The position numbers and the translations under genes are program-made. The notes under the pieces were generated by a model. The model had not been told where the DNA came from, made no database searches, and saw only the letters and a program-made list of their open reading frames with translations. 64,000 nucleotides of DNA from contig NZ_LT607755.1 of NCBI RefSeq assembly GCF_900090275.1, positions 1,736,001 through 1,800,000 of the forward strand. The letters are read 5' to 3'. Each line of letters begins with the position of its first letter. Position 1 is the first letter of the stretch. Below are positions 51,955 to 61,419 of this stretch, one piece after another. The DNA is from Micromonospora zamorensis. GTDB taxonomy: Bacteria; Actinomycetota; Actinomycetes; Mycobacteriales; Micromonosporaceae.

Positions 51955-54501
51955 ATGCGAGTTTCTGTCAGTTGGCTGCGGGAGTACGTCGACCTCCCCG
52001 CCGACCTGCCCACCGGTGACCTGGAGCAGGCCCTGGTCGACCTCGGCATCGAGGTCGAGTCCGTCGTGGACCTGGCCGCCTCCGTCACCGGTCAGCTCGT
52101 CGTCGGTGAGGTCCGCGAGATCGAGGAGCTCACCGGCTTCAAGAAGCCGATCCGGTTCTGCCGGGTCGACGTGGGTGACGCCAACGGCACCGGGGAGCCG
52201 CAGGAGATCGTCTGCGGGGCGCGCAACTTCGCCGTCGGTGACCGCGTGGTGGTGATCCTGCCCGGCGGTGTGCTGCCCGGCGGGTTCGCGATCGGCGCCC
52301 GCAAGACGTACGGGCACAACTCCGCGGGCATGATCTGCTCGGCGAAGGAGCTGGGTCTCGGCGACGACCACTCCGGCATCATCGTGCTGGGGCCGGACGT
52401 GACGGCCAAGCCGGGCGACGACGCGCGCCCGGTGGTCGGCCTCGACGACGTCGTGCTCGATCTGGAGATCACCCCCGACCGGGGGTACGCGCTGAGCCTG
52501 CGGGGTCTGGCCCGGGAGCTGTCGCACGCGTTCGACGTGCCGCTGCACGACCCGGCCCTGGCCCCCGCGCCGAGCGGCACCGAGACACCCGCCTACCCGG
52601 TGGAGGTCCGCGACACGGTCGGCTGCGACCGGTTCACCGCCCGCCTGGTCCGGGGCGTCGACCCGAGCGCGCCCACCCCGTCGTGGATGCAGCAGCGGCT
52701 GGTCACCGCCGGCATCCGCAGCATCTCGTTGCCGGTGGACATCACCAACTACGTGATGTTGGAGCTGGGCCAGCCGATGCACGCCTTCGACGCCGACCGG
52801 GTCGTCGGGCCGCTGGTGGTCCGCCGCGCCGAGGCGGGGGAGAAGCTGACCACCCTGGACGGTGTCAACCGGGTGCTCACCGCCGACGACATGGTCATCT
52901 GCGACGACACGGGTCCGATCTCCCTCGCGGCCGTGATGGGCGGCGAGACCAGCGAGGTCGTCGCCGACACCACCACCGTGCTCTTCGAGGCGGCGCACTG
53001 GGACCCGGCGATGGTCGGGCGTACGGCCCGCCGGCACAAGCTGTTCAGCGAGGCCGCGAAGCGCTGGGAGCGGGGCGTCGACCCGGCCGTGGCGCTGGTC
53101 GCGTTGGAACGTGCCGTGCGGCTGCTCACCGAGCACGGTGGTGGCACCCCGGGCGCGGAGGTCCTGGACATCGACCACGTCCGTCCGCGTACCCCGATCA
53201 CCCTGCCGGCGGACCTGCCCACCCGGCGGGTCGGCGTGGAGTACCCGCCGGCGCGGGTGGTCGCCCTGCTGGAGCGGGTCGGCTGCACCGTCGCGCAGGG
53301 CGTGGACCGGTTGTCCGAGGACCCGGGCGCGGTCGGCGTGGCCAGCGGCGCCGGGACGGCGCTGAGTGTCACCCCGCCGACCTGGCGGCCCGACCTGACC
53401 GACCCGGCCGACCTGGTCGAGGAGGTGGTCCGCCTCGACGGGTACGACCGGGTGCCGTCGGTGCTGCCGACCGCGCCTCCCGGTCGCGGCCTGACCCCGC
53501 GGCAACGTCGGCGCCGGGCGGTCGCCGGGTCCCTCGCTGAGCGGGGGTACGTGGAGGTGCTCGCGCACCCCTTCGTGTCGCCGGAGCTGGCCGACCAGCT
53601 CGGCCTGGCGGCCGACGACCCGCGTCGCCCCGCGGTGCGGCTGGCCAACCCGTTGTCCGAGGAGGAGCCGCTGCTGCGCACCACGCTGCTCGGCCCGCTG
53701 CTCGGCATCCTCAAGCGCAACCTCGGTCGAGGTCACCGCGACCTCGCCCTCTACGAGATCGGCGCGGTCTTCCACCCGCGCGTCGGTGCCGGCAGCCCGC
53801 CGGCGATGGGCGTGGACCGGCGTCCCACCGACGCGGAGTTCGCGGCCGCCGACGCGGTGGTGCCGGCGCAGCCGGTGCACGTCGCGGTGGTGCTCGCCGG
53901 CGACCTCGACCCCGCCGGTTGGTGGGGTGCGGGTCGACCGGCCGGCTGGGCGGACGCGATCGAGGCGGCCCGTGACGTGCTCGACGCCGCCGGGATTCCC
54001 GGCGAGCGGGTCGAGGTGCGGGCGGCCGAGTACGCGCCGTGGCACCCGGGCCGCTGCGCCGAGCTGCGGGTCGACGGCGCGGTCGTCGGGCACGCCGGTG
54101 AGCTGCACCCGGTGGTCGTCGCGGCGTTGGAGCTGCCCCGACGCACCTGCGCGATGGAGCTGGACCTCGACACGCTGCCACCGACCCCGGTGACGCCCGC
54201 GCCGACGGTGTCCGGCTTCCCACCGGCGCTGATCGACGTGGCCTTGGTGGTGGACGACTCGGTGCCGGCGGAGCAGGTACGCCGGGCGCTGGAGGCGGGC
54301 GCCGGTGAACTGCTGGAGGACGTGCGGCTGTTCGACGTGTACTCCGGCGCGCAACTCGGCGCCGGCCGCCGGTCGTTGGCGTACAAGCTCACCTTCCGGG
54401 CACCGGACCGGACGCTTACCGTCGAGGAGGCGGTCGCGGCACGGGACGCGGCGGTCGCCGTCGCGGCGGAGCGCCTCGGCGCCACCCTGCGCGGCGCCTG
54501 A
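51955..54501 (+). CDS. pheT: Phenylalanyl-tRNA synthetase beta subunit
   Basis: Editing and tRNA-binding subunit, 848 residues. EMAP-like tRNA-binding domain about 40-150 (EIVCGARNFAVGDRVVVILPGG), B3/B4 editing domain about 210-380 (LPVDITNYVMLELGQPMHAFD), B5 domain about 400-480, catalytic-like core, and the FDX-ACB anticodon domain in the last 90 residues (FPPALIDVALVVDDSV). ATG start, weak ribosome site. Three base pairs separate its stop from the S26 peptidase GTG. Confidence 0.97.
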   Translation: MRVSVSWLREYVDLPADLPTGDLEQALVDLGIEVESVVDLAASVTGQLVVGEVREIEELTGFKKPIRFCRVDVGDANGTGEPQEIVCGARNFAVGDRVVVILPGGVLPGGFAIGARKTYGHNSAGMICSAKELGLGDDHSGIIVLGPDVTAKPGDDARPVVGLDDVVLDLEITPDRGYALSLRGLARELSHAFDVPLHDPALAPAPSGTETPAYPVEVRDTVGCDRFTARLVRGVDPSAPTPSWMQQRLVTAGIRSISLPVDITNYVMLELGQPMHAFDADRVVGPLVVRRAEAGEKLTTLDGVNRVLTADDMVICDDTGPISLAAVMGGETSEVVADTTTVLFEAAHWDPAMVGRTARRHKLFSEAAKRWERGVDPAVALVALERAVRLLTEHGGGTPGAEVLDIDHVRPRTPITLPADLPTRRVGVEYPPARVVALLERVGCTVAQGVDRLSEDPGAVGVASGAGTALSVTPPTWRPDLTDPADLVEEVVRLDGYDRVPSVLPTAPPGRGLTPRQRRRRAVAGSLAERGYVEVLAHPFVSPELADQLGLAADDPRRPAVRLANPLSEEEPLLRTTLLGPLLGILKRNLGRGHRDLALYEIGAVFHPRVGAGSPPAMGVDRRPTDAEFAAADAVVPAQPVHVAVVLAGDLDPAGWWGAGRPAGWADAIEAARDVLDAAGIPGERVEVRAAEYAPWHPGRCAELRVDGAVVGHAGELHPVVVAALELPRRTCAMELDLDTLPPTPVTPAPTVSGFPPALIDVALVVDDSVPAEQVRRALEAGAGELLEDVRLFDVYSGAQLGAGRRSLAYKLTFRAPDRTLTVEEAVAARDAAVAVAAERLGATLRGA

Positions 54502-54504
54502 GCG

Positions 54505-54978
54505 GTGCCGGTGCTGGGATGGCTCGCGGTGGCCGCCGTGTTCGCGGTGGCCACCGCCGCCCTGATCTGGGCCCGCCGGCACCTGCTGCTGGTCGCGGTC
54601 GTGGGGCGCAGCATGGAGCCGACGCTGCGCTCCGGTGACCGGGTGCTGGCCCGGCGCGTGCCGCTGGCCCGGATCCGGCCCGGTGACGTCGTCGTGGTGG
54701 TCGCCCCGGCGGAGATGACCGCCGGGCGACCCACCCGCCCCGACGCGACGGGCACGCCCGGCCTGCTGATCAAGCGGGCGTACGCGGTGCCGGGCGACCC
54801 GGTGCCGGTGGACCGGGTGCCGCTGCTGCGCCGTGGTGGCGAGCAGGTGGTGCCGGCCGGCCGGCTGGTGGTGCTCGGCGACAACCCGTCGCAGAGCTAC
54901 GACTCCCGCGAGTGCGGCTACATCCCGGAGCCGGACGTGCTCGGCGTGGTGGTCCGGCCGCGACCGCGCGCGGACTGA
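54505..54978 (+). CDS. S26-family signal peptidase-like protein
   Basis: 157 residues with one N-terminal membrane helix (about 5-23), then the S26 fold: GRSMEPTL with nucleophile Ser36, Lys90 in LLIKRAYAVPGD as general base, and VVLGDNPSQSYDSRECGY. It is short, lacking the large cap domain of LepB, as in specialised S26 enzymes. GTG start 3 bp after pheT, so it may be co-transcribed with it. Adjacent and convergent to the Cys-rich peptide gene, whose leader ends TAAAG; I infer it could cleave that leader. Confidence 0.85.
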   Translation: MPVLGWLAVAAVFAVATAALIWARRHLLLVAVVGRSMEPTLRSGDRVLARRVPLARIRPGDVVVVVAPAEMTAGRPTRPDATGTPGLLIKRAYAVPGDPVPVDRVPLLRRGGEQVVPAGRLVVLGDNPSQSYDSRECGYIPEPDVLGVVVRPRPRAD

Positions 54979-55002
54979 CCGTCGGCGTGGGTGGCATGCG
55001 GA

Positions 55003-55040
55003 ACGGCGTGCCACCCGGCCCGGGCCGGGTGGCACGCCGT
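55003..55040. terminator. Bidirectional terminator between S26 and peptide genes
   Basis: A perfect 18-bp stem (55003-55020 with 55023-55040) of ACGGCGTGCCACCCGGCC and its complement, with a CG loop. It lies between the convergent stops at 54978 and 55048. Confidence 0.85.
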
Positions 55041-55047
55041 CAGCGCC

Positions 55048-55263
55048 TCAGCAGAGAGCGCTCATCGTGCTCGCGCCCGCGCTGCAGTAGTAACCGCAGC
55101 TTCCGCAGGTCGTCTTGCAGGCCAGGTTCGTGCTGCACCGCTTGAAGTAGCACGTCCCACAGAGCGCGCAGTACGGGTCCGGCGGACAGCCGGCGGCTGC
55201 CGTCACCTTGGGTACGAACACGCCGAGCATCCGCTCGCCCAGGTTCTCCAGTCGACGGAACAT
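55048..55263 (-). CDS. Cysteine-rich secreted peptide, candidate RiPP or cystine-rich bacteriocin precursor
   Basis: 71 residues. Residues 1-25 (MFRRLENLGERMLGVFVPKV then TAAAG) form an amphipathic leader, not a classic signal peptide. Residues 26-71 contain ten Cys, at 26, 32, 35, 38, 43, 49, 53, 56, 60 and 71, many in CxxC spacing, and end in Cys. ATG has GGGAGG about 6 bp upstream. It is divergent from a MauE-TlpA-ABC exporter operon and has a SARP-type promoter. I recognise no family. No lanthionine or radical-SAM enzyme is nearby, so disulfides or metal binding are the likely fates. Confidence 0.8.
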   Translation of the reverse strand: MFRRLENLGERMLGVFVPKVTAAAGCPPDPYCALCGTCYFKRCSTNLACKTTCGSCGYYCSAGASTMSALC

Positions 55264-55298
55264 CCGTTCACCTCCCCTCGATACGGATCGTTGCCGGG

Positions 55299-55330
55299 AC
55301 GCTACGGCGGGTCGGTACACCGCCGGTACA
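55299..55330 (-). promoter_or_regulatory. SARP-type promoter of the peptide gene
   Basis: On the minus strand: TGTACCG (55330-55324), 4 bp, TGTACCG (55319-55313), 8 bp, TAGCGT -10 (55304-55299). Two heptamers at 11-bp spacing, the last ending 8 nt before the -10, is the established SARP operator layout. mRNA would start about 29 nt before the ATG. Confidence 0.75.
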
Positions 55331-55357
55331 GCCGAGCCGGAGGTCGGCAACAGTCGA

Positions 55358-55389
55358 TGTATCCGCGATGTATCCGCCACTTCTAGCGT
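55358..55389 (+). promoter_or_regulatory. SARP-type promoter of the MauE-TlpA-ABC operon
   Basis: TGTATCC (55358-55364), 4 bp, TGTATCC (55369-55375), 8 bp, TAGCGT -10 (55384-55389). Same heptamer type, spacing and -10 as the divergent promoter at 55299-55330. The repeated unit is in fact a perfect 11-bp direct repeat, CGATGTATCCG, at 55355-55376. Confidence 0.75.
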
Positions 55390-55419
55390 GGGCCTCCCGG
55401 CAATGGGAGGTGCGTACGG

Positions 55420-55974
55420 ATGCGAGCCCTGGAACTGACCGCACGGCTGCTGCTGGCCCTGGTGTTCCTCGCCGCGGTCGTCGGCAAGCTGCGGACCCGG
55501 GCGGGTTTCGCCGCCTTCGTCGGGTCGGTCGGCCAGTTCGGCGTGCCCGACCGCTGGACCGTGCCCGCTGCCCGCGTCGCGGTGGTCGCCGAGGCCGCCG
55601 TGGTGGTGCTGCTCGCCGTCCCCCGGACCGTGCCCGTCGGGCTGGTGCTCGCCGTCGGGCTGCTCGGTGTGCTCACCGCCGCGATCGTCGGGGCGTTGCG
55701 TCGGGGTGCCCGGCCGGCCTGCCGCTGCTTCGGCGCCGCCGACGCGCCGGTCGGGCCCCGGCACGTCGGGCGCAACCTCGCCCTCGCCGCAGTGGCGCTG
55801 CTCGGCCTGTTCGGCTGGGCCAGCGCCACCGGGCCGCCGCCGTCCGCGTCGGCCGTCCTGGTCGCCGTCGGTGTGGCGGTTCCCCTCGCCGCAGTGGTGG
55901 TCCGGCTCGACGACCTGGTCGCCCTGTTCGCCCCCACGTCGCCGCGGCAGTCCCGTCCGGCCGGTCGGCACTGA
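55420..55974 (+). CDS. MauE/DoxX-family redox-associated membrane protein
   Basis: 184 residues with four predicted membrane helices (about 8-22, 52-68, 72-92, 115-130), then a basic tail. The CRCFG motif at residues 101-105 (Cys101, Cys103) is the conserved loop of MauE-like proteins, thought to pass electrons or disulfides to a thioredoxin partner. ATG with GGGAGG 9 bp upstream. Followed 36 bp later by a TlpA/MauD-like gene, the same pair as mauE-mauD in methylamine dehydrogenase maturation, where they help form six disulfides (established). Confidence 0.85.
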   Translation: MRALELTARLLLALVFLAAVVGKLRTRAGFAAFVGSVGQFGVPDRWTVPAARVAVVAEAAVVVLLAVPRTVPVGLVLAVGLLGVLTAAIVGALRRGARPACRCFGAADAPVGPRHVGRNLALAAVALLGLFGWASATGPPPSASAVLVAVGVAVPLAAVVVRLDDLVALFAPTSPRQSRPAGRH

Positions 55975-56010
55975 CCCCGGTTCGTATCCCCGCACCCCGA
56001 AGGAGCCCTC

Positions 56011-56550
56011 ATGGCGCTGTTGACCGTCGCCGTTGTCCTCGTCGCCGCTCTCGGCCTGCTCAACCTGGTCCTGCTGCTCGGTGTGGTCCGTCGGCTGCGC
56101 GAGCACTCCGACCTGCTCAGCGACCAGCAGGGCCAACCACCGGCGGTGATGCTGGAGGTGGGTTCGATCCCCGGTGACTTCGTGTCAACCACTGTGGACG
56201 GTCGCCTGCTCGCGCGCGCCGATCTGCCGCCGATGACCCTGGTGGCGTTCCTCTCGCCGAGCTGTGAGCACTGCGAGGAGCAGTTGCCGGTGCTCGTCGA
56301 CCGGGCAAGGACGATGCCCGGCGGCGCGGAGCACGTCTGGATCGTGGTGGTCGGGAAGGGTCCGGAGACCCAGCCGTACGCGGAGCGGTTCACCGGCCTG
56401 GCGACCGTCTTCGTGGAGCCGGGCACCGGCGCGCTTCCGCTGGCGTTCGGGGTCAAGGGGTTCCCGGCGTTCGGCCTGCTCGACGAGCGCGGCATCGTGG
56501 CGTCGACGGCGTTCGGCATCGCCCGGTTGGACCTGCCGGTGGCGCGGTGA
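56011..56550 (+). CDS. TlpA/MauD-like membrane-anchored thioredoxin
   Basis: 179 residues: N-terminal anchor helix (about 4-26), then a thioredoxin fold with redox motif CEHC at 85-88 (LSPSCEHCEEQLP) and the conserved cis-Pro region VKGFPAFGLLDERG. The active site faces outside the membrane. With the MauE-like protein it likely forms a disulfide-exchange pair for the Cys-rich peptide (inference). ATG with GAAGGAG upstream. The stop overlaps the ABC gene by 4 bp. Confidence 0.88.
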   Translation: MALLTVAVVLVAALGLLNLVLLLGVVRRLREHSDLLSDQQGQPPAVMLEVGSIPGDFVSTTVDGRLLARADLPPMTLVAFLSPSCEHCEEQLPVLVDRARTMPGGAEHVWIVVVGKGPETQPYAERFTGLATVFVEPGTGALPLAFGVKGFPAFGLLDERGIVASTAFGIARLDLPVAR

Positions 56551-58391
56551 GCGGCCCCCGGCTGGCACCGCGGCAGGCTGCCCGGCACGCCCGGTCGGCA
56601 CTGGGGCTGACCTGGCGGGCCGCCCCGGGGGGCACTACGACGGACCTGCTGCTCGCCGTGCTGGCCGGTTTGACCCCGGTCCTCGTGGCGGCGCTCACCA
56701 AGCTCGTGCTGGACCGGCTCACCGGTGGCGGCTCGGCCGGCGTGCCGCTGACCGCGCTCGCCGCCGGCCTCGCCATGGCCGCCGCGCTCGGCACGGTCCT
56801 GCCGCACCTGCGCACCTACGTGGCGGCGCAGCGGTCGCGGGCGGTGTCGCGGCTGGTGCGCCGCCGCCTCTACGACGCGGTGCAGCGGCTCGTCGGGCTG
56901 GTGCGGTTGGAGGATCCGGAGTTCCAGGACCGGTTGCAGGCCGCCCAGCAGACCGGTCACCTCGGTCCCACCCAGCTGACCGGCAACACGTTCGGCGCTG
57001 TGCAGAGCGCACTGGCGATGACGGGGTTCCTCGGCGTCCTGTTGATGCTCAACCCGCTGATCGGGGCGTTGGTGCTGCTCGCCGCGCTGCCCACACTCTG
57101 GATGCAGCTACGGCTCAACCGGGCCCGCGCGGCGATGGTGCTGCGGATGGAGCACTTCCAACGGCGGGACCTGTTCTTCGCCCAGCTGCTGGTGGGTGTG
57201 CCGGCGGCCAAGGAGGTGCGCCTGTTCGGTCTGGGCCGGTTCTTCGGCGACCGGATGCTCGACGAGCTGCACGACCTGCACCGGGTGGAGCAGAAACTGG
57301 ACCGCCGGGAGGTGCGCGCCCAAGCGGTGCTCGGCCTGCTCGGCGCGACGGTGGCGGGCATCGGGGTGGTCTACACCGTCTCGGTCGCCCGCGCGGGCGG
57401 GCTCAGCCTCGGCGACGTGGTGATCTTCCTGGCCGCGATCCCGGGGGTGCAGGGTGCGCTGGGCAGCCTGGTCGTCCAGCTCGGCGCGATCCACCAGGCG
57501 CTGCTGCTCTTCGAGCACTACGACCAGGTGGCGCACGTCGAGACGGACCTGCCGGTGCCGGCCACCCCCCGGCCGGTGCCACCGCTGACCGAGGGCATCG
57601 AGCTGCGCGATGTGTGGTTCCGCTACTCGCCGCAGCATCCGTGGGTGCTGCGGGGTGTGGACCTGCACCTGCGCGCCGGGGCCACGACGGCTCTGGTGGG
57701 GCTGAACGGCGCCGGCAAGAGCACCCTGGTCAAGCTCCTCTGCCGCTTCTACGACCCGGAGCGCGGCAGCATCCGGTGGGACGGGGTCGACCTGCGCGAG
57801 TTTGATCCAGCGGAGCTGCGCGAGCGGCTGGGGGCGGTGTTCCAGGACTTCATGCCGTACGACCTCAGCGCGGCGGAGAACATCGCGTTGGGTGACCTGG
57901 GCGCGCGCGAGGACCCGGAGCGGCTGCGAACCGCCGCCCGGCATGCGGGCATCGACGACACGTTGACCGCGCTGCCCCGCGGCTACGACACCCTGCTGAC
58001 CCGGATCTTCTTCGACGGCCCGGACCGGGACGACCCGCAGGCCGGGGTGGTGCTCTCCGGCGGTCAGTGGCAACGGGTGGCGCTTGCCCGGGGGTTCCTG
58101 CGGGCCGAGCGGGACCTGCTGATTCTGGACGAGCCCAGCTCCGGCCTGGACGCCGAGGCCGAGCACGACCTGCACCGCCGGTTGGGTGAGCTGCGCCGGG
58201 GTCGGACCAGTCTGCTCATCTCGCACCGGCTCAACGCGGTGCGCGACGCGGACACGATCGTGGTGCTCGCCGACGGTCGGGTCGTCGAGCGGGGTGACCA
58301 CCGGGAGCTGCTCGCCGCCGCAGGCCGGTACGCCCGGCTGTTCGGCCTGCAGGCCCGCGGTTACCGGGAGGACGCCCCGGCACCCGTCTGA
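56547..58391 (+). CDS. Peptide-exporter-type ABC transporter (permease-ATPase fusion)
   Basis: 614 residues. Membrane domain about 1-330 with six helices, then an ATPase: GLNGAGKST (Walker A), FQDFMPYDLSAAENIALGD, LSGGQWQRVALARGF (signature) and LLILDEPSSGLDAE (Walker B). Short segment FFDGPDRDDPQAG just before the signature is typical of lantibiotic exporters. There is no N-terminal C39 peptidase, so a separate protease must remove the leader. GTG overlaps the TlpA stop. The 3' end overlaps the convergent regulator gene by 31 bp. Confidence 0.92.
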   Translation: MSGPRLAPRQAARHARSALGLTWRAAPGGTTTDLLLAVLAGLTPVLVAALTKLVLDRLTGGGSAGVPLTALAAGLAMAAALGTVLPHLRTYVAAQRSRAVSRLVRRRLYDAVQRLVGLVRLEDPEFQDRLQAAQQTGHLGPTQLTGNTFGAVQSALAMTGFLGVLLMLNPLIGALVLLAALPTLWMQLRLNRARAAMVLRMEHFQRRDLFFAQLLVGVPAAKEVRLFGLGRFFGDRMLDELHDLHRVEQKLDRREVRAQAVLGLLGATVAGIGVVYTVSVARAGGLSLGDVVIFLAAIPGVQGALGSLVVQLGAIHQALLLFEHYDQVAHVETDLPVPATPRPVPPLTEGIELRDVWFRYSPQHPWVLRGVDLHLRAGATTALVGLNGAGKSTLVKLLCRFYDPERGSIRWDGVDLREFDPAELRERLGAVFQDFMPYDLSAAENIALGDLGAREDPERLRTAARHAGIDDTLTALPRGYDTLLTRIFFDGPDRDDPQAGVVLSGGQWQRVALARGFLRAERDLLILDEPSSGLDAEAEHDLHRRLGELRRGRTSLLISHRLNAVRDADTIVVLADGRVVERGDHRELLAAAGRYARLFGLQARGYREDAPAPV

Positions 58392-60193
58392 CCGGCCAGG
58401 TCACCGCTCGCCTCGGTGGCGGCGAGTTCGGCGGCGTAGAGCCGGACGAGTTCGCCGATGTGGAACCGGCCCGGTCCGGCCGGCTCGGCGAGCTGCGCGG
58501 CGACCAGCCGGTCCAGTGCCCGCGCCGCGTCCTCGGGCGGAGCCCCGCTCAGCATGGCGGCCAGTTCGGCGGTGACCGGCCCGGGGTGGGCTCGGCCGAG
58601 CCGGAGGAAGACCGGCGCGGCCGACCCGAGCCGGTGGTAGCTGGCGCTGAGCCGGGGCCCGAGACCGGTCTCGGCGAGCCGGTACCGCTCGTCGCGCAGC
58701 AACAGCGCCAACCGCGTCAGCGACCAGTGCGGTCCCTCGGTCAGCCGGCCGGCCGCGGTGCGCAATGCGAGCGGCAGCCGCTCGCAGAGGTTGACCACCG
58801 CCGAGGCCGCCTCCGGCTCCGCGTCCACCGTCCGATCTCCGGCGGTGGCCCGCAGCATCGCCAGCGCGTCGGCGGCGGGAAGCGGGTCGAGCCGCAGGCC
58901 GGGGGCGTCGCCGGTGGTGACCGGGTTGCGGCTGGTGACCAGCAGCGCGCACCCGCCGCGGACCGGCAGCAGGCCGTCGACCTGGGCGGCGTCGGCGGCG
59001 TTGTCGAGCACCAGCAGCACCCGTCGGTCGAACAGCAGGGACCGGACCCGGGCGCGCGCCTCGGCGACGCTGGTCGGCTCCGGTTCGTCGGCGCCCGGGT
59101 ACAGGGCCCGGAGCACCCGGGTGGCGACCTGCAACGGCAGGGGTGGGGCGTCCGCGACCGACCCGCCGAGATCGAGGTGGAGCTGGCCGTCCGGGAAGGC
59201 GTCCAGCGCCGCCGCTGCGGCACGCAGCGCCAGTGCCGACTTGCCGGTGCCCGCCATGCCGTAGACGGCCACGGTGACCGGTTGCCGCCGGGCGTCGACC
59301 AGCGCCTGGCACAGCCGGGCCAGCTCTGCCCGGCGGCCGACGAACGACGCGGCGGGGCAGGGCAGCTCGTGCGGCACCCGCGACGCGACGGCGCGATGCC
59401 GGGGCGGTGTGCCGCCGGGCCGCCGGGTCGGGACCGCCGTCCGGCGCTCCTGGCGGCGCACCGAGCGGTACAGCTCGGTCAGCTCGGGCCCGGGAGCCAC
59501 GCCCAGTTCGCCGTCGAGTGCCCGGCAGGCCGCCTGGTAGGTATGCACCACGCCGGCATGGTCGCCGGCGCGATGCAGCGCGGTCATCAGCAGCGCCCAC
59601 GCCGGCTCGCGCAGCGGGTGCTCCGCGAGGTGCTGGCGCAGCAGGGTCAGCAGCTGCGGTGTGCCCCGGTCGCCCAGGTCCAGGCGGCAGGCCGCGTACG
59701 TCTCCCGGGCGCCGGCGCGCCGCTCCCGCAGCCGGTCGAAGGCGACCGCGGTCGCCGGCCCGTACGCCGGGGGTGGTTCGGTCGGTGACCAGAGCCCGAG
59801 CGCGCGGCTCAGCAGGGTGGTGGCCAGTTCGTGTTCGCCGCTGATGCGGGCAGCGTGGCCGTCGGTGGCGAGTCGTTCGAACTCGGTGGCGTCCAGTTCA
59901 CCCGGTTCGACGCGGAGCAGGTACCCACCGTGCTCGGCGGGCAATCGGGGCAGTTCGTCGGGGGAGTCGAGCAGGTGGCGTAGCTGGCTGGCGTGGCTGC
60001 GCAGGTTGGCCACGGCCGAGGCCGGGGGTCGTCTGCCCCACAGCTCCTCGCGCAGCCGGTCGACCGGGACCGCCAGGCCGGCCTGGAGCAGGAGGGTGAC
60101 CAGAAAGGCTGTGGGCCGGCCGGCCGGCATCCGCAGGGTCTGCCCGTCGCGACGCACCCGGACCGGACCGAGGATCTCGAACGACAGCCCCAC
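58361..60193 (-). CDS. SARP-family transcriptional regulator with NB-ARC domain (AfsR-like)
   Basis: 610 residues. OmpR-type winged helix about 1-95 (LGPVRVRRDGQ, RLREELWGRRPPASAVANLRSH), bacterial transcriptional activator domain 100-250, then an NB-ARC ATPase with P-loop YGMAGTGKSA near 310-320 and LLVLDNAADAAQVDGLLP. It lacks the TPR region of full AfsR. GTG 60193 is chosen because GGAGGA lies 4 bp upstream. Such proteins activate secondary-metabolite clusters. The heptamer repeats at 55299-55389 match its expected sites. Confidence 0.9.
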   Translation of the reverse strand: MGLSFEILGPVRVRRDGQTLRMPAGRPTAFLVTLLLQAGLAVPVDRLREELWGRRPPASAVANLRSHASQLRHLLDSPDELPRLPAEHGGYLLRVEPGELDATEFERLATDGHAARISGEHELATTLLSRALGLWSPTEPPPAYGPATAVAFDRLRERRAGARETYAACRLDLGDRGTPQLLTLLRQHLAEHPLREPAWALLMTALHRAGDHAGVVHTYQAACRALDGELGVAPGPELTELYRSVRRQERRTAVPTRRPGGTPPRHRAVASRVPHELPCPAASFVGRRAELARLCQALVDARRQPVTVAVYGMAGTGKSALALRAAAAALDAFPDGQLHLDLGGSVADAPPLPLQVATRVLRALYPGADEPEPTSVAEARARVRSLLFDRRVLLVLDNAADAAQVDGLLPVRGGCALLVTSRNPVTTGDAPGLRLDPLPAADALAMLRATAGDRTVDAEPEAASAVVNLCERLPLALRTAAGRLTEGPHWSLTRLALLLRDERYRLAETGLGPRLSASYHRLGSAAPVFLRLGRAHPGPVTAELAAMLSGAPPEDAARALDRLVAAQLAEPAGPGRFHIGELVRLYAAELAATEASGDLAGQTGAGASSR

Positions 60194-60340
60194 CGCGTCC
60201 TCCGTCAGGTGCCCCCACGCGGACCGGGCAGGCCGGCCCACCACCGTCAGAAAGTCATGCTAGTCGATTGAATGCCGCCTCAGACGATTTAGCTGAACGT
60301 TGACTCAGGTGTTTCCCCGGCAGCGGCACCGGTACATTGC

Positions 60341-60417: not shown

Positions 60418-61419
60418 ATGGGGATCCGAGTCGCGGTCGCCGGTGCGAGCGGCTACGCCGGGGGTGAGTTGCTGCGCCTGGTCGCCGGCCACCCGGAGTT
60501 CGACCTGGTCGCCGCCACCGCGCACAGCCAGGCCGGTCACCGCGTCGACGTGGTGCACCCGCAGCTCACCGGGCTCGACCTGGTGCTCGGCCAGACCGAC
60601 CCGGCGACGCTCGCCGACGCGGACCTGGTCTTCCTGGCCCTGCCGCACGGCGAGTCGGCTGCGCTCGCGTCCCAGTTGCCGGCCGAGGTGCGCATCGTCG
60701 ACCTGGGCGCGGACCACCGGCTCGCCGACCCGTACGCCTGGGCGCAGTACTACGGCGGCACGCACGCCGGGCAGTGGACCTACGGCCTGCCCGAGCTGCC
60801 CGGTCAGCGGGAGCTGATCGCCGGCTCCACCCGGGTGGCGAACACCGGCTGCTACGCCGCCGCGATCACCCTGGCGCTCGCGCCGCTGATCGCCGACGGC
60901 GCGGCCAGCCCCGCCGACGTGGTGGTCGTGGCCGCATCCGGCACCTCCGGCGCGGGTCGGGCGGCGAAGCCGCACCTGCTGGCCAGCGAGGTGCTGGGCG
61001 ACCTGTCGCCGTACCGGGTGGGCACCCACCAGCACGTGCCGGAGATCAAGCAGGCATCCGGCGCGACCGGCCTGTCGTTCACGCCCGTCCTGGCGCCGAT
61101 GCCGCGCGGCATTCTGGCCACGGTCACCGCGGTGCCGGCGCGCGGTGTCGACCCGCAGCAGGTGCTGGCGCAGGCGTACGCCGACGCGCCGTTCGTGCAC
61201 GTGCTGCCGGAGGGCCGCTGGCCGCACACGGCCGCCACGCTGGGCTCCAACTCGTGTCACCTGCAGGCCACCGTCGACGTCGACTCGGGCCGCTTGATCG
61301 TGCTCAGCGCGCTGGACAACCTGGGCAAGGGCGCGGCCGGTCAGGCAGTGCAGAACGCCAACCTCATGCTCGGCCTGCCGGAGACGACGGGCCTGTCGAT
61401 CTGGGGAGTCAGCCCATGA
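60418..61419 (+). CDS. argC: N-acetyl-gamma-glutamyl-phosphate reductase
   Basis: Third step of arginine synthesis, NADPH dependent. 333 residues. GASGYAGGELLRLV (NADP), catalytic Cys in NTGCYAAAITLALAPL, and the His in GTHQHVPEI. ATG with GGAGGT upstream. First gene of argC-argJ-argB-argD. The stop overlaps argJ by 4 bp (ATGA). Confidence 0.97.
   Translation: MGIRVAVAGASGYAGGELLRLVAGHPEFDLVAATAHSQAGHRVDVVHPQLTGLDLVLGQTDPATLADADLVFLALPHGESAALASQLPAEVRIVDLGADHRLADPYAWAQYYGGTHAGQWTYGLPELPGQRELIAGSTRVANTGCYAAAITLALAPLIADGAASPADVVVVAASGTSGAGRAAKPHLLASEVLGDLSPYRVGTHQHVPEIKQASGATGLSFTPVLAPMPRGILATVTAVPARGVDPQQVLAQAYADAPFVHVLPEGRWPHTAATLGSNSCHLQATVDVDSGRLIVLSALDNLGKGAAGQAVQNANLMLGLPETTGLSIWGVSP

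Follow-up and report, generated by a model that had tools for sequence, protein, structure and literature searches.

Between pheT and argC in the genome of Micromonospora zamorensis lies a gene for a 71-residue peptide with ten cysteines, surrounded by genes for a protease, two redox proteins, an ABC exporter, and a regulator. The question raised by this locus is whether these genes form a dedicated route by which the peptide is oxidized, cleaved, and exported, as a preliminary description of the DNA had proposed. The window, meaning the whole stretch of DNA that was analyzed, comprises 64,000 nucleotides of contig NZ_LT607755.1 (positions 1,736,001 to 1,800,000; assembly GCF_900090275.1), and coordinates given below are positions within it. 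The reading that we favor, with a probability of about 0.8, is a RiPP-type system with a leader and a variable core, in which complete disulfide pairing is the signature modification and a dedicated machine oxidizes, cleaves, and exports the product.

Gene content and insertion site of the locus

All six genes of the preliminary description, encoding five neighboring functions and a SARP regulator, were confirmed between pheT (51955 to 54501, plus strand), the left border of the insertion site, and argC (60418 to 61419, plus strand), its right border. The first of them starts 3 bases after pheT and encodes an S26 (signal-peptidase-type) protease with an N-terminal membrane anchor (54505 to 54978, plus strand; PF10502, E value of 1.2e-20), which is proposed to be the leader peptidase. 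The precursor gene (55048 to 55263) is on the minus strand, divergent from the genes for the MauE/DoxX-type membrane redox protein (55420 to 55974, plus strand; PF07291, 1.4e-23), the membrane-anchored TlpA/ResA-like thioredoxin (56011 to 56550, plus strand), and the ABC exporter (56547 to 58391, plus strand). The single operon suggested earlier is therefore replaced by two divergent units and an S26 gene behind pheT. The exporter has fused transmembrane and nucleotide-binding domains (PF00664 and PF00005), and a C39 peptidase domain was not found among its 11 Pfam matches at an E value of 0.1. The interval is completed by an AfsR-like SARP with BTAD and NB-ARC domains (58361 to 60244, minus strand; BTAD, 5.7e-26). 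Several SARP orthologues align only from about position 60193, so the start may be the one at 60193 given in the preliminary description.

The motifs expected of the machinery proteins are well kept across their families. In the S26 family (139 matches), the columns that we take to be the catalytic Ser and Lys are invariant in all 135 members that have a residue at those positions of the alignment. The conserved CxC of MauE (CRCFG in the window protein) is kept in all 109 family members found, and a search for relatives in the PDB by sequence gave none at an E value of 0.1. The thioredoxin, which carries a CEHC motif, is weak in Pfam (E value of 0.004, below the cutoff); a profile of nine members matched thioredoxin-family structures, including ResA and DsbF, with a best value of 2.5e-11, and the CxxC is kept in 136 of 138 family members. 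The window genome also encodes, at another site (G000:C1:433050-433448; L361), a second MauE-family protein with a stronger match (98 bits).

The absence of LanM, LanBC, radical SAM, and YcaO enzymes noted earlier was borne out, as a scan of the six proteins encoded between pheT and argC found none, and on that scan the locus does not resemble the lanthipeptides, sactipeptides, or azole RiPPs. Nor does it resemble bacteriocins with a PCAT exporter and a double-glycine leader, given an exporter without C39 and a leader that ends in AAA.

Across Micromonospora genomes, pheT and argC flank a variable insertion site. The argC gene was found in each of 15 Micromonospora genomes without a match in the precursor searches, and pheT ends within 200 bp of it in 4 of these (L238, L240, L244, and L251). 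In ten others, either pheT and argC lie 0.7 to 6.5 kb apart with other genes between them (eight genomes) or pheT is outside the stretch (two genomes); the site is at a contig end in L241. In L255, an S26 gene is the only gene between pheT and argC.

A cassette family with cysteine-rich partners

An initial precursor search was positive in 10 of 61 genomes, the window genome included, and homologs of TlpA, the ABC protein, and S26 surrounded the matches in 10 of 11 loci. The eleventh locus, L023, is cut off within MauE by the end of its contig; as that contig lacks the ABC gene, L023 is in none of the locus counts. A search across the phylum found 2 of 396 genomes, again including the window genome, at a strict cutoff that probably underreports. 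A search with the ABC protein, which is independent of the precursor, covered 298 genomes of the order and gave matches at an E value of 1e-120 or less in 46 of them. Full-length cassette exporters scored 605 to 1,061 bits and an unrelated group scored 417 to 503 bits, with partial matches between; the exporter of L136 is a cassette member despite its 451 bits. Loci L129 to L135 and L137 to L140 make up a separate, related group of ABC exporters (about 417 to 503 bits) that lack the cassette partners in their neighborhood. The partial match of L128 (G116; 518 bits, with a weak S26) was kept outside the cassette, control, and exporter-genome groups, and TlpA and a precursor were not seen there.

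The 129 distinct loci found through the ABC protein contained a leader-bearing, cysteine-rich precursor in 113 cases, TlpA in 124, S26 in 119, and MauE in 97. With 10 precursor-found loci added, the counts in 139 loci were 123, 134, 129, and 106, respectively; both sets exclude duplicates, which the 144-locus counts below include. Some of the 129 loci are short or at contig ends, which applies to several of the 16 without a precursor (L107 is at a contig end); S26 was absent from 10 and TlpA from 5. The combination of a dedicated protease and an exporter at one locus, which is used to recognize RiPP clusters, is thus present in 119 of the 129 ABC-found loci. MauE, absent from 32 of the 129, was rejected as a core gene of the set; its membership, claimed earlier, stands for the 97 loci that carry it, as an optional rather than an essential component. 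Of 35 MauE-less loci, 21 were inspected by eye, and no common substitute was apparent among them.

The partner encoded in these loci is a leader peptide of about 45 to 80 residues with a variable core. A profile of the short leader recovered a precursor with at least four cysteines in 53 of 59 cassette loci, including 42 of 48 fetched through the ABC protein; 24 of the seeds of this model came from loci that were then counted, and the genome-wide precursor profile was built largely from such loci. Less circular is the set of named public loci, with a precursor in 67 of 80 (the best 80 of at least 585), since the leader profile used none of those records, although 5 of these loci were already present in the first set. 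Leader matches were found at 0 of 11 control loci near other ABC exporters, and TlpA, S26, or MauE were found at 0 of 12. At least four cysteines followed the leader in 62 of 63 leader matches of the first set and in 72 of 73 of the named set. In L114, the leader match is followed by only three cysteines; the L115 precursor was found with another start; and L154 was counted as precursor bearing although only three of its four cysteines are behind the matched leader. Precursor genera in the named set include Streptomyces, Nonomuraea, Actinomadura, Nocardia, Nocardiopsis, Lentzea, Amycolatopsis, Catellatospora, Embleya, and Microbispora. Plasmids of S. clavuligerus and S. atratus carry cassettes as well, and the precursors there bear the annotation "hypothetical protein"; across the sources that gave an annotation, precursors were called only that or "uncharacterized."

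The co-occurrence of peptide and exporter predicted in the preliminary description was also found at the level of whole genomes. Among the 298 genomes, 33 contained a precursor, 35 contained the cassette ABC exporter (the 46 above minus 11 with only other exporters or the partial L128), and 32 contained both (Fisher test, 2e-38). The sole precursor genome without the exporter, G152, has a borderline precursor match (3.7e-4). Exporter genomes without a match to the broad precursor profile are G294, where the exporter is at a contig end, G320, and G250, in which the leader profile did recover a precursor (L109). The proposed dedicated route therefore holds as far as co-occurrence is concerned (32 of 33 genomes, with a precursor in 113 of 129 loci), whereas oxidation, cleavage, and export are steps that we infer.

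Precursor peptides and the proposed maturation route

The window precursor had no Pfam match at an E value of 0.1, no NCBIfam match at an E value of 1, and no relatives in the PDB by sequence at an E value of 1. Its behavior is nevertheless that of a real gene, to judge from cysteine conservation and substitution rates: all ten cysteines are kept in the window precursor and nine syntenic orthologues, and dN/dS is 0.10 for the leader and 0.33 for the core (ten close orthologues), compared with 0.27 for TlpA (nine orthologues). A value of 0.33 indicates that, within the orthologue group, purifying selection acts on the core as it does on ordinary proteins, and because core and TlpA values are similar, positive selection is not indicated at this depth. 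Core variability sits instead between distant members. Distant relatives keep the leader, in the form xLGxRLLxxFVPKxxAxA, and the core changes almost completely; a conserved leader joined to a variable core is the family-level pattern by which RiPP precursors are recognized.

The leader of the window precursor (residues 1 to 24, MFRRLENLGERMLGVFVPKVTAAA; 55192 to 55263, minus strand) ends in AAA before the first cysteine rather than in GG and, by eye, does not look like a Sec signal, being too short and too polar. Cleavage is predicted after A24, at an AxA motif between AAA and GC, and a loose [AGSV]xA pattern is present within residues 18 to 29 in 99 of 106 dissimilar precursors. The predicted mature core would start at G25 (55051 to 55191, minus strand) and comprise 47 residues with ten cysteines, for which five disulfides and an average mass of 4824.5 in the oxidized form are expected. 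The calculated mass is 4834.6 for the reduced peptide and 4767.5 for a 46-residue form.

The parity of the cysteines points to their probable fate, since complete pairing requires an even count. Among 106 precursors sharing less than 50% core identity, 98 have an even number of cysteines (P = 4e-21, binomial test against one half), as do 193 of 202 unique precursors; 14 other residues, counted as a control, were even in 40 to 61 of the 106. Such even counts are strong evidence, at the level of sequence, that the cysteines pair, and the 98 of 106 points to disulfides as the probable modification of the core. The remaining 8 of the 106 have an odd number, and eight odd cases were also listed in an earlier count. 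Six of those eight listed precursors come from loci with two precursors (two each from L020 and L116 and one each from L104 and L234; 7+7 and 9+7 cysteines); as a guess, such pairs may reflect bonds between two peptides. In L151 (G304:C1:3284441), a lone leader-like open reading frame is followed by no cysteines and is possibly a decayed precursor.

In a further correction of the preliminary description, precursors need not lie beside the cassette genes. Genome G186, from the same family and assembled as a single contig of 5.66 Mb, contains one cassette and 19 precursors (E value below 1e-3) around the chromosome, none seen beside the cassette; some are in pairs or threes, and their neighbors look, by eye, unrelated to it. 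All 19 have 4, 6, or 8 cysteines. G703 contains 30 precursors and G704 contains 10, all even, so that 59 of 59 precursors in this one genus, which is probably Stackebrandtia, are even in cysteines and mostly scattered far from the cassette (L268, L291 to L308, L313 to L332, and L341 to L360). G703 is probably Stackebrandtia albiflava, as one of its precursors is identical to one in the named locus L161, and a single precursor (C5:175599; L331) lies next to its cassette. The congeners G705 and G706 had no precursors at an E value below 1e-3. One cassette-grade exporter each was found in G186, G703, G704, and G705 (783 to 805 bits, with other exporters at about 400 or less) and none in G706.

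A short, polar leader that ends in AAA before the first cysteine suggests export by the ABC protein followed by oxidation and S26 trimming outside the cell. In the route that we propose, the leader would direct the precursor to the ABC exporter, and outside the membrane the anchored TlpA-like thioredoxin would introduce or shuffle disulfides; in loci that have MauE, that protein would recycle the electrons of the thioredoxin. Cleavage after AxA by the membrane-anchored S26 protease would next free a compact multidisulfide peptide from its leader, and in the window Micromonospora the neighboring SARP would switch on both divergent units. We infer the order of these steps, the redox direction, the cleavage point, and SARP binding. 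TlpA-family proteins can act as either reductases or oxidases, so the cassette thioredoxin may work in either redox direction.

As to the product, the leading candidate role, at about even odds, is that of a secreted antibacterial or other competition peptide. It is possible, but less probable, that the same route yields a signal or developmental surface peptide: an immunity gene does not stand out, one genus has many precursors per genome, and a BTAD protein is present in 67 of 144 loci. Against a signal stand the diversity of the cores, the patchy distribution, which includes Streptomyces plasmids, and the variable insertion site; such features are seen more commonly with competition peptides. 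Secreted metal-binding peptides of the metallothionein or bufferin kind, with TlpA and MauE keeping cysteines reduced for metal loading, would also account for cysteine-rich cores and for the presence of ResA among the TlpA relatives, and MauE very weakly resembles HvfX of a copper-binding RiPP system (E value of 0.005, far below the cutoff). This reading is improbable, as the even cysteine number in 98 of 106 precursors fits pairing and is not demanded by metal clusters, the cores differ widely, and the six pheT-argC proteins that were scanned include no metallopeptide-modifying enzyme. Maturation of a dehydrogenase-type small subunit, to which the MauE homology and the place of MauE and MauD in methylamine dehydrogenase maturation (PMC7794033) might point, is hardly credible and was rejected, the partner across loci being a variable-core leader peptide of about 45 to 80 residues; the light chain (PF02975) had no match in the window genome, a weak result because the control genomes gave none either.

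Returning to the disulfide-paired RiPP reading, the cassette may, with somewhat better than even support, define a distinct and widespread class of actinobacterial RiPPs whose leaders are of the FVPK-xAxA type, whose trimming is by S26, and whose cores have all their cysteines in disulfides; in one genus, probably Stackebrandtia, a single cassette would serve as many as 30 precursors, most of them scattered. Pediocin-type class II bacteriocins with PedC/PedD likewise combine a precursor, a dedicated thiol-disulfide protein, and an ABC exporter. Their leader is cut by the exporter's own peptidase domain and their disulfides are few, and they are not known to include MauE or S26. TMcin likewise has a dedicated disulfide enzyme (TmcD), a leader protease, and an ABC transporter in its cluster but differs in its membrane-helix product with one disulfide, its S2P-type protease, and its DsbA-type enzyme (PMC13252029). 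Actifensins are also secreted multidisulfide peptides of actinobacteria with degenerate cores and ABC genes but have a defensin-like six-cysteine fold, a GA/GG-type leader site, and a subtilisin-like protease; the words "thioredoxin" and "peptidase" do not occur in the main text of that report (PMC6989792). The scattered repertoires resemble the prochlorosins, in which one promiscuous machine, a solitary ProcM, serves many precursors, the difference being that those are lanthipeptides made by ProcM rather than disulfide peptides (PMC10783134).

The earlier statement that no described system has such a composition was too strong. The composition had already been glimpsed in 2020, when decRiPPter flagged three candidate families in Streptomyces, among 42, all with mauE and a precursor containing eight or more cysteines and one of them also with mauD; the clusters had been filtered for a transporter, a peptidase, and a regulator, and the authors suggest a role in RiPP precursor modification (PMC7794033). 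The parts of that paper covered here come without the leader motif, the S26 site, cysteine parity, the wide distribution, or scattered precursors. Streptomyces viridosporus T7A is named there (PMC7794033), and S. viridosporus NRRL 2414 carries the cassette (L204) with a precursor of six cysteines, fewer than the minimum of eight in the decRiPPter families, with which it may not be identical. No description of this family's leader, S26 trimming, optional MauE, even-cysteine rule, breadth, or scattered repertoires was found among open PMC papers.

If the proposed system is real, it would supply folded multidisulfide peptides of bacterial origin in large numbers. The leader and the dedicated oxidation-and-export machine seem to tolerate very different cores, which makes the family a place to look for new bioactive peptides and possibly a means of producing disulfide-rich ones. 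The scattered repertoires would be a disulfide counterpart of the prochlorosins, and they make the question of one machine and dozens of cores directly testable.

SARP-type boxes between the divergent units

The 156 bp between the precursor and MauE contain two divergent copies of the pattern TGTA-N7-TGTA-N11-TAGNNT, one facing each transcription unit: TGTACCG-N4-TGTACCG-N8-TAGCGT on the precursor side (55299 to 55330, minus strand) and TGTATCC-N4-TGTATCC-N8-TAGCGT on the MauE-TlpA-ABC side (55358 to 55389, plus strand). Each consists of heptamers with 4-nucleotide spacers (an 11-nucleotide period) followed at 8 nucleotides by the -10-like element TAGCGT. As a rule, SARP sites lie at a distance of 8 nucleotides from the -10 element. 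Heptamers with a 4-nucleotide spacer are the classical SARP site (PMC5930380; PMC10972967), and heptamer repeats with an 11-nucleotide period before the target promoters, as found here, are characteristic of SARP-controlled clusters.

The pattern, which was drawn from the precursor-MauE region before being searched, occurs exactly twice in the whole 7.1-Mb genome, both copies being those described here; a reversed control pattern had no match in the 7.1 Mb, and 0 of 100 shuffles of the window contained the pattern. Each box is full in 8 of 10 orthologous regions (own included), the MauE-side box having one mismatch in L013 and L015 and the precursor-side box being absent from L083 and L084. 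A SARP homolog was present in all eight orthologous loci tested. Across the family, a BTAD protein is present in 67 of 144 cassette loci, compared with 0 of 12 controls, and in 59 of 136 loci when the group of the window locus is left out. Outside that group the box layout is rare, occurring in 2 of 73 dissimilar upstream regions (shuffles, mean of 0.05), a set in which the group was represented by L013, without a perfect repeat. The SARP control implied by the preliminary description is supported for the window locus, by its two genome-unique boxes, and rejected as a rule for the family.

That the repeats arose by chance and the SARP regulates something else is doubtful. The rarity of the layout in dissimilar regions and the absence of the precursor-side box from 2 of 10 orthologues would agree with chance. 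Against it stand the exact layout, which occurs once for each divergent unit and nowhere else in the 7.1 Mb, the full boxes in 8 of 10 orthologous regions per side, and the SARP homolog in 8 of 8 loci. A similar box, TGTATCG-N4-TATATCG-N8-TAACGT, is found upstream of a Catellatospora methionotrophica precursor (L179 9352).
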